A stretch of DNA of 26,664 nt from positions 1-26,664 of IMG/VR virus record IMGVR_UViG_3300032217_000408; one strand, given 5' to 3'. Below are positions 2,994-23,501 of the stretch, in pieces. The stretch comes from a virus. The translations under genes and the position numbers were made by a program. The notes below the pieces were generated by a model. That model was not told the origin of the DNA. It saw only the letters and a list, made by a program, of their open reading frames with translations, and ran no database searches. The stretch's first letter is position 1. The number at the start of each line of letters is the position of its first letter.

Positions 2994-3022
2994 TTGACAA
3001 CAAAGCCCATAGGTGTTATAAT
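2994..3022 (+). promoter_or_regulatory. Sigma-70 promoter for the tape measure gene (perfect -35, 17-base spacer, extended -10)
   Basis: TTGACA at 2994-2999 and TATAAT at 3017-3022 both match the consensus fully, with 17 bases between. A TG one base before the -10 box (3014-3015) makes it an extended -10. It lies between a strong terminator and the tape measure start and should be read by the unmodified host polymerase. The transcript start is expected near 3028-3030. Confidence 0.93.
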
Positions 3023-3037
3023 GGGGGTTACTAATAA

Positions 3038-3062
3038 TAGCGTTTGAAAATTTTGTGCGCTA
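3038..3062 (+). promoter_or_regulatory. Leader hairpin before the tape measure gene, similar to one at 23110-23132
   Basis: In the roughly 50-base leader, TAGCG (3038-3042) pairs with CGCTA (3058-3062) around a loop containing AAAATTTTGTG. The leader of the operon at 23160 has the same arrangement (TAGGC, AAATTTCGT, GCCTA) with a different but still complementary stem. The ribosome binding site AGGAG (3066-3070) starts four bases after the stem. A role in message stability or translation control is inference. Confidence 0.45.
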
Positions 3063-3075
3063 AGCAGGAGAACAC

Positions 3076-23022: not shown

Positions 23023-23063
23023 AAAAATTCCTCGTTGCTAGAAATAGGGCGGGGAATTTTTTT
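23023..23063 (+). terminator. Intrinsic terminator after the 234-aa fiber gene
   Basis: AAAAATTCCTCG (23023-23034) pairs with CGGGGAATTTTT (23050-23061), with one G-T wobble, around a 15-base loop, and runs into Ts up to 23063. The A-rich left arm could also act in the opposite direction. It closes the long tail tip operon that starts at 10810. Confidence 0.9.
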
Positions 23064-23066
23064 GTC

Positions 23067-23095
23067 TTGACTTTGCTATGCCAACGTGTTATAAT
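23067..23095 (+). promoter_or_regulatory. Sigma-70 promoter for the distal fiber operon (extended -10)
   Basis: TTGACT (23067-23072) and TATAAT (23090-23095) are spaced by 17 bases, with a TG at 23087-23088. The nine bases TGTTATAAT are identical to those of the tape measure promoter (3014-3022). It begins four bases after the T-tract of the terminator. Confidence 0.93.
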
Positions 23096-23109
23096 AGAAC
23101 AAAATCATA

Positions 23110-23132
23110 TAGGCGTCTAAATTTCGTGCCTA
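23110..23132 (+). promoter_or_regulatory. Leader hairpin similar to the tape measure leader
   Basis: TAGGC (23110-23114) pairs with GCCTA (23128-23132) around a loop holding AAATTTCGT. It sits about the same distance from the promoter as the hairpin at 3038-3062 and shares the loop core AAATTTnGTG and the following CTAA. The stem bases differ but still pair, which favours a selected RNA shape. Confidence 0.5.
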
Positions 23133-23158
23133 AATTTAACTTTGTAAGGGAGACGCCT
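23111..23158 (+). promoter_or_regulatory. Long-range inverted repeat covering the ribosome binding site of the membrane protein gene
   Basis: AGGCGTCT (23111-23118) is the exact complement of AGACGCCT (23151-23158). The right arm overlaps the end of the ribosome binding site AAGGGAG (23146-23152) and ends one base before the ATG (23160). The left arm shares bases with the hairpin at 23110-23132, so the two structures exclude each other: one would block and the other free the start region. Its operation as a switch is inference. Confidence 0.5.
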
Positions 23159-23159
23159 G

Positions 23160-23501
23160 ATGGAGTCAACGATACCGACCACATTATACGAATGGATATC
23201 TACAGCTTTTTTAGCCGTAATAGGAATTGCTATAGGAATTCAATTGCTTATTAAAAATTGGAAAACTAATAATACAGAATCAGCATTACTATCCATGATG
23301 CACGATGAACTAGAAAGAATGAGTGCGCAAAACTCTTTACTTTCTCAGGAAATAGGTAAGCTACAAACAGAGCTTGTAAAACTTAGCACGCAGTTAACTG
23401 AGCTTAATATAGAGAATCAAAATCTACAAATGCAAATAGCTAGTTTAAATAAAGAAATAGCTAGATTGCATGGGTTTATAACTGATAAGGGGGCTCTATG
23501 A
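23160..23501 (+). CDS. Membrane-anchored coiled-coil protein, 113 aa; possible holin- or spanin-like protein
   Basis: Residues of about 10-30 (ISTAFLAVIGIAIGIQLLI) form one membrane segment. The rest, about 45-105, is a regular heptad-type coiled coil (ELERMSAQNSLL, KLQTELVKLSTQLTEL, NLQMQIASLNKEIARL). Positive charges right after the membrane segment (KNWK) suggest the coiled coil stays in the cytoplasm, the opposite of an Rz-type spanin. A single anchor followed by a coiled coil could still be a lysis protein, a membrane-linked assembly factor or a fiber-related scaffold. It is the first gene of an operon with fibers and no visible endolysin, so lysis is not established. The leader can fold over its ribosome binding site. 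Its stop overlaps the next ATG (ATGA). Confidence 0.75.
   Translation: MESTIPTTLYEWISTAFLAVIGIAIGIQLLIKNWKTNNTESALLSMMHDELERMSAQNSLLSQEIGKLQTELVKLSTQLTELNIENQNLQMQIASLNKEIARLHGFITDKGAL

Follow-up and report, generated by a model that had tools for sequence, protein, structure and literature searches.

Covering of the ribosome-binding site (RBS) by structure in the leader of an mRNA is an already known type of control. The holin gene S of phage lambda carries a stem-loop in its start region (sdi), which selects between two start codons. In the leader of the MS2 maturation gene, a stable structure closes the Shine–Dalgarno (SD) sequence, and a shorter hairpin of the nascent RNA leaves the SD open, with a delay that has been measured (PMC6071253). 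Successive, mutually exclusive hairpins that form during transcription control access to the SD in the aapA3 toxin mRNA of Helicobacter pylori (PMC6733600).

The locus described here lies in a window of 26,664 bases, which is the whole stretch of DNA that was analysed. The window is a separate virus record and carries structural genes of a tailed phage, with matches to a major tail protein and to a tail tube terminator. As in the MS2 leader, the strand that eventually covers the RBS is predicted to be engaged first in an early small hairpin. However, MS2 is an RNA phage whose delay was measured, whereas the present leader belongs to a DNA-phage transcript of unrelated sequence and its behaviour is predicted from sequence. 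At most, the window leader would work like the MS2 leader in logic. As in aapA3, mutually exclusive hairpins would govern SD access in succession; in contrast, aapA3 involves an antisense RNA and its transient hairpins conceal the SD, whereas the early hairpin of the window would free the SD, and no antisense partner for the window leader was seen. As in lambda S, initiation at a phage gene for a membrane protein would be modulated by a stem close to the RBS, but the window gene lacks another Met codon nearby and is not known to encode a holin.

Promoter, leader and two competing helices

The features of the locus are as follows.

23023–23064, + strand: intrinsic terminator of the upstream gene (fold at 23023–23061)
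23067–23095, + strand: sigma-70 promoter TTGACT-17-TATAAT with an extended −10 TG at 23087–23088 (11/12 matches, top of the scanned region)
23102–23159, + strand: putative leader RNA of about 58 nt, its start site placed from the −10 box
23110–23132, + strand: short hairpin of 5 bp, TAGGC (23110–23114) with GCCTA (23128–23132), the minimum free energy (MFE) structure of the nascent leader
23111–23118, + strand: left arm AGGCGTCT, common to both helices and identical in the window and in relatives L009, L010, L012 and L096
23146–23152, + strand: SD sequence AAGGGAG, predicted to be about two thirds paired in the closed form
23151–23158, + strand: right arm AGACGCCT, read from the sequence, over the end of the SD and the spacer between the SD and the ATG
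23160–23501, + strand: downstream gene for a 113-aa protein with an N-terminal hydrophobic helix, a coiled coil and the motif MHxELERM (open reading frame and family alignment)

Because a terminator and a promoter precede it, the leader is taken to be the start of its own transcript. The T-tract of the terminator reaches the −35 box of the promoter, and the terminator structure is retained with differing sequences in most relatives. The same consensus promoter is present in 103 of the 115 family loci read, and a control pattern, read backwards, gave 0 matches; a scan of viral contigs with the promoter pattern yielded mixed matches among those listed.

The arms AGGCGTCT and AGACGCCT, read directly, are exact 8-nt complements, and the start codon ATG lies at 23160. 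The original prediction of an 8-base pairing over the end of the SD and the bases by the ATG is confirmed with exact coordinates, and so is its claim that the same left arm is needed for the short hairpin at 23110–23132: bases 23111–23114 are common to TAGGC/GCCTA and to the long helix, and the two cannot coexist as nested helices.

RNAfold gives the long helix as the MFE structure of the leader (−15.5 kcal/mol), with the bases over the SD and the start mostly paired; the predicted unpaired probability at 37 °C in the full leader is 0.13 for the start and about 0.36 for the SD. The full leader is thus predicted to form a helix over the SD and/or the start region, as an RBS-sequestering leader does. 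The truncated leader folds into the short hairpin (−6.4 kcal/mol), and MFE folds of the growing transcript show this hairpin from a length of about 29 nt onwards and the long helix as soon as the right arm has been synthesized. The short-first, long-second order is predicted for the window, L009, L010 and L012, so that an earlier hairpin uses the anti-RBS strand, as in a kinetic leader of the MS2 type. G23113 of the window has a pairing probability at 37 °C of 0.93 in the long helix and 0.07 in the short hairpin, but because a rival fold, consisting of the short hairpin and a local start-codon hairpin, lies just 0.5 kcal/mol above the MFE (−15.0 versus −15.5 kcal/mol), this long/short balance is within model error.

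Three minor points concern the same leader. The sequence TTTAACTTTG at 23135–23143, directly 5′ of the SD, resembles the T7 gene 10 translation enhancer, TTAACTTTA, and falls within the loop when the structure is closed. An H-type pseudoknot between the loop of the short hairpin (AATTT) and AAATT just after it, noticed by eye, was rejected: there is no linker across the first stem, and the pairing is AU-only. No Rfam family was matched at gathering score by the window or five related loci.

When the leader was dinucleotide-shuffled, 0.48% of the shuffles produced an exact complement of at least 8 nt between leader and RBS region; mock start positions in the window have one in 1.6% of cases. 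Among the 103 starts of related loci that are preceded by an SD, none has such a complement (the largest is 7), and neither has any other scored start in the window (the largest is 6). The shuffles and the related starts support the earlier view that such a complement is unlikely by accident. Occlusion of the RBS was compared with that in leader shuffles in which the RBS was held fixed, and the resulting values were 0.057 for the window (borderline), 0.020 for L009, and a weak 0.13 and 0.10 for L010 and L012, respectively. Because the window alone is borderline, the case rests on conservation in relatives.

Related leaders and alternative explanations

Protein searches found 181 family-encoding loci in viral contigs; the 80 best were retained, and a search with the leader pattern contributed two more distinct leaders, those of L096 and L068. 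The subclade of the window comprises six distinct leaders. The short hairpin has 5/5 pairs in all six. The long helix has 8/8 pairs in the window, 7/8 in each of L009, L010, L012 and L096, and 4/8 in L068; both helices are present in these first five leaders, and in L068 just the short hairpin is intact. Such a fading of the long helix beside an intact short hairpin is what would be expected if only the short 5′ hairpin were functional, for example as a stabilizer of the mRNA 5′ end, and the RBS pairing were a by-product confined to a small clade. Some leaders behind a second promoter described below (L244 and L249), as well as those of L027 and L017, are likewise predicted to have a hairpin close to the 5′ end. 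However, the right arm is conserved too, even in L096, where the surrounding SD differs, and AGACGCC has no other evident reason to be kept; this explanation seems rather unlikely.

Beyond the subclade, RBS occlusion across 39 distinct leaders equals that of shuffled controls (mean percentile 0.46). Covering of the RBS as a general feature of the gene was rejected, there being no family-wide excess over the shuffles, and for the same reason the covering helix is regarded as a subclade trait. The original prediction named relatives that keep the gene and lose the complementarity as evidence against it, and such relatives do occur outside the subclade. Its proposed comparison of homologous leaders gave a divided answer: L009, L010, L012 and L096 have both helices, but L068 and L014–L017 keep the gene and the promoter with merely weak complementarity. 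L014 and L015 have a 5-bp ATGTA/TACAT pairing at the same place, and their RBS is predicted to be open (accessibility 0.60 and 0.62).

The absent or weak complementarity beyond the subclade, together with the borderline value of the window against shuffles and the small number of distinct sequences, is compatible with a functionless chance match that was retained by common ancestry in a young clade. Against this stand the rarity of an 8-nt match and the conservation of the leader. Leader identity (79–83%) exceeds coding identity (63–72% at the nucleotide level) in L009, L010, L012 and L096, which argues that the leader is under selection; in L096, the leader is 83% identical (33/36 in the first 36 nt) and the protein 53%. 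A chance origin is accordingly judged improbable.

Four conserved leader columns are changed in L012 alone, and at two of them, the short- and long-helix partners of the left-arm G at 23113, the change is C to U. Because both alternative partners of the same G have changed from C to U, L012 retains a G·U pair in both helices; the chance of such paired changes under random placement is about 0.016 in a post hoc test. No true double compensatory change was found in either helix among the subclade leaders. Covariation analysis of the RNAalifold type is unsuited to these leaders: the arms barely vary within the subclade, and outside it the leaders do not align. It is very improbable that the arms are a DNA inverted repeat bound by a repressor directly downstream of the promoter, for although they lie at about +10 and +50 of a strong promoter and are near invariant, their spacing varies by 1–2 bases within the subclade, the L012 change preserves RNA G·U pairing and breaks the DNA symmetry, the arms fall on the SD and the start, and further copies of the arms in the window do not exceed chance.

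A candidate leader-based control of translation

Computation shows the two helices, the order in which they appear and their conservation within the subclade. We place moderate confidence in a cis-acting mRNA leader that would restrict translation of the gene at the head of a tail-fibre operon. Translation control, as originally proposed, is the natural reading of exclusive helices between a promoter and a start codon, but it would apply to the subclade only. The main doubts about this reading, itself a prediction from sequence, are its narrow phylogenetic spread and the lack of double compensatory changes.

According to the leader reading, host RNA polymerase would initiate near 23102, and the nascent RNA would first make TAGGC/GCCTA, sequestering the left arm and leaving the SD free. 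Once the right arm has been transcribed, the left arm could swap partners and cover the bases between the SD and the ATG, and the closed form would presumably reduce ribosome entry. It is a tentative and somewhat doubtful extension that the short hairpin delays closing enough for a brief period of translation from each new transcript. Such a delay is possible because the estimated nested-path barriers from the short to the long helix are 9–12 kcal/mol; these are upper bounds because a pseudoknotted toehold (GTCT with AGAC) could accelerate the switch, abolishing any delay. An MS2-style kinetic RNA switch in tailed DNA phages, giving a pulse of membrane protein and having its helices balanced by matched changes as in L012, is quite unlikely, and that the leader times a membrane protein is a guess.

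If the leader does limit translation, it would provide a compact natural system of 58 nt in which two helices compete and of which five variants from nature lend themselves to probing, and it would place a check at the level of translation behind a consensus promoter among the structural genes of metagenomic phages.

The gene family and its neighbourhood

The 113-aa protein likely carries one membrane helix. It has no Pfam match above cut-off, and its PHROG matches are weak and of the coiled-coil kind. Downstream of the gene, in the window and most relatives, a phrog_1084 protein is encoded, often with a collagen-like protein and tail-fibre-like proteins, and the gene at 23160 looks like the head of a tail-fibre operon. 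The sole homologue in genome contigs and in phage and plasmid records is that of Curvibacter phage P26059A (L004, KY981271.1 31427–31780), which adjoins small membrane proteins, lies two genes before a peptidase M15 gene and abuts the preceding gene without a promoter or leader. Such neighbours suggest that the Curvibacter phage protein has a role related to lysis, whereas the window gene stands in a tail-fibre setting.

The proteins of about 113 aa form a large, uncharacterized phage family with the motif MHxELERMsxQN (L009–L044 and L162–L241; 181 viral-contig loci), and upstream of their genes there is nearly always a terminator, together with a consensus extended −10 promoter and a leader. 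A broader by-product of the analysis is thus an unnamed, widespread membrane/coiled-coil family with leaders of about 58 or about 123 nt behind a terminator and a consensus promoter. Among the 103 promoter-bearing loci, nearly all leaders measure about 55–90 nt or about 120–142 nt. L025, L174, L191 and about 30 others have a near-constant leader of about 123 nt with the conserved ends ATACCAAAATGTCAGAAC...TTTTTTCTTGACAAGC and CCACTGCTAATAAGGAGATCTGATT, and this is the majority type among the relatives.

In another clade, L021 (5844–5965) and L232 have different leader sequences that pair with their own SD, TCTCCTATTT/AAATAGGAGA and TCTCCC/GGGAGA (p = 0.026 and 0.066 by duplex energy), and a single matched T-A to C-G change was noticed by eye. 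This is a hint that pairing with the SD may have evolved more than once.

A second extended −10 promoter, TTGACA-17-TGTTATAAT, is located at 2994–3075 of the window, downstream of a terminator, and is followed by a leader of about 50 nt before a gene for a 2541-aa protein. The same arrangement recurs in relatives L244, L249, L255, L263 and L264, with leaders of 45–53 nt.
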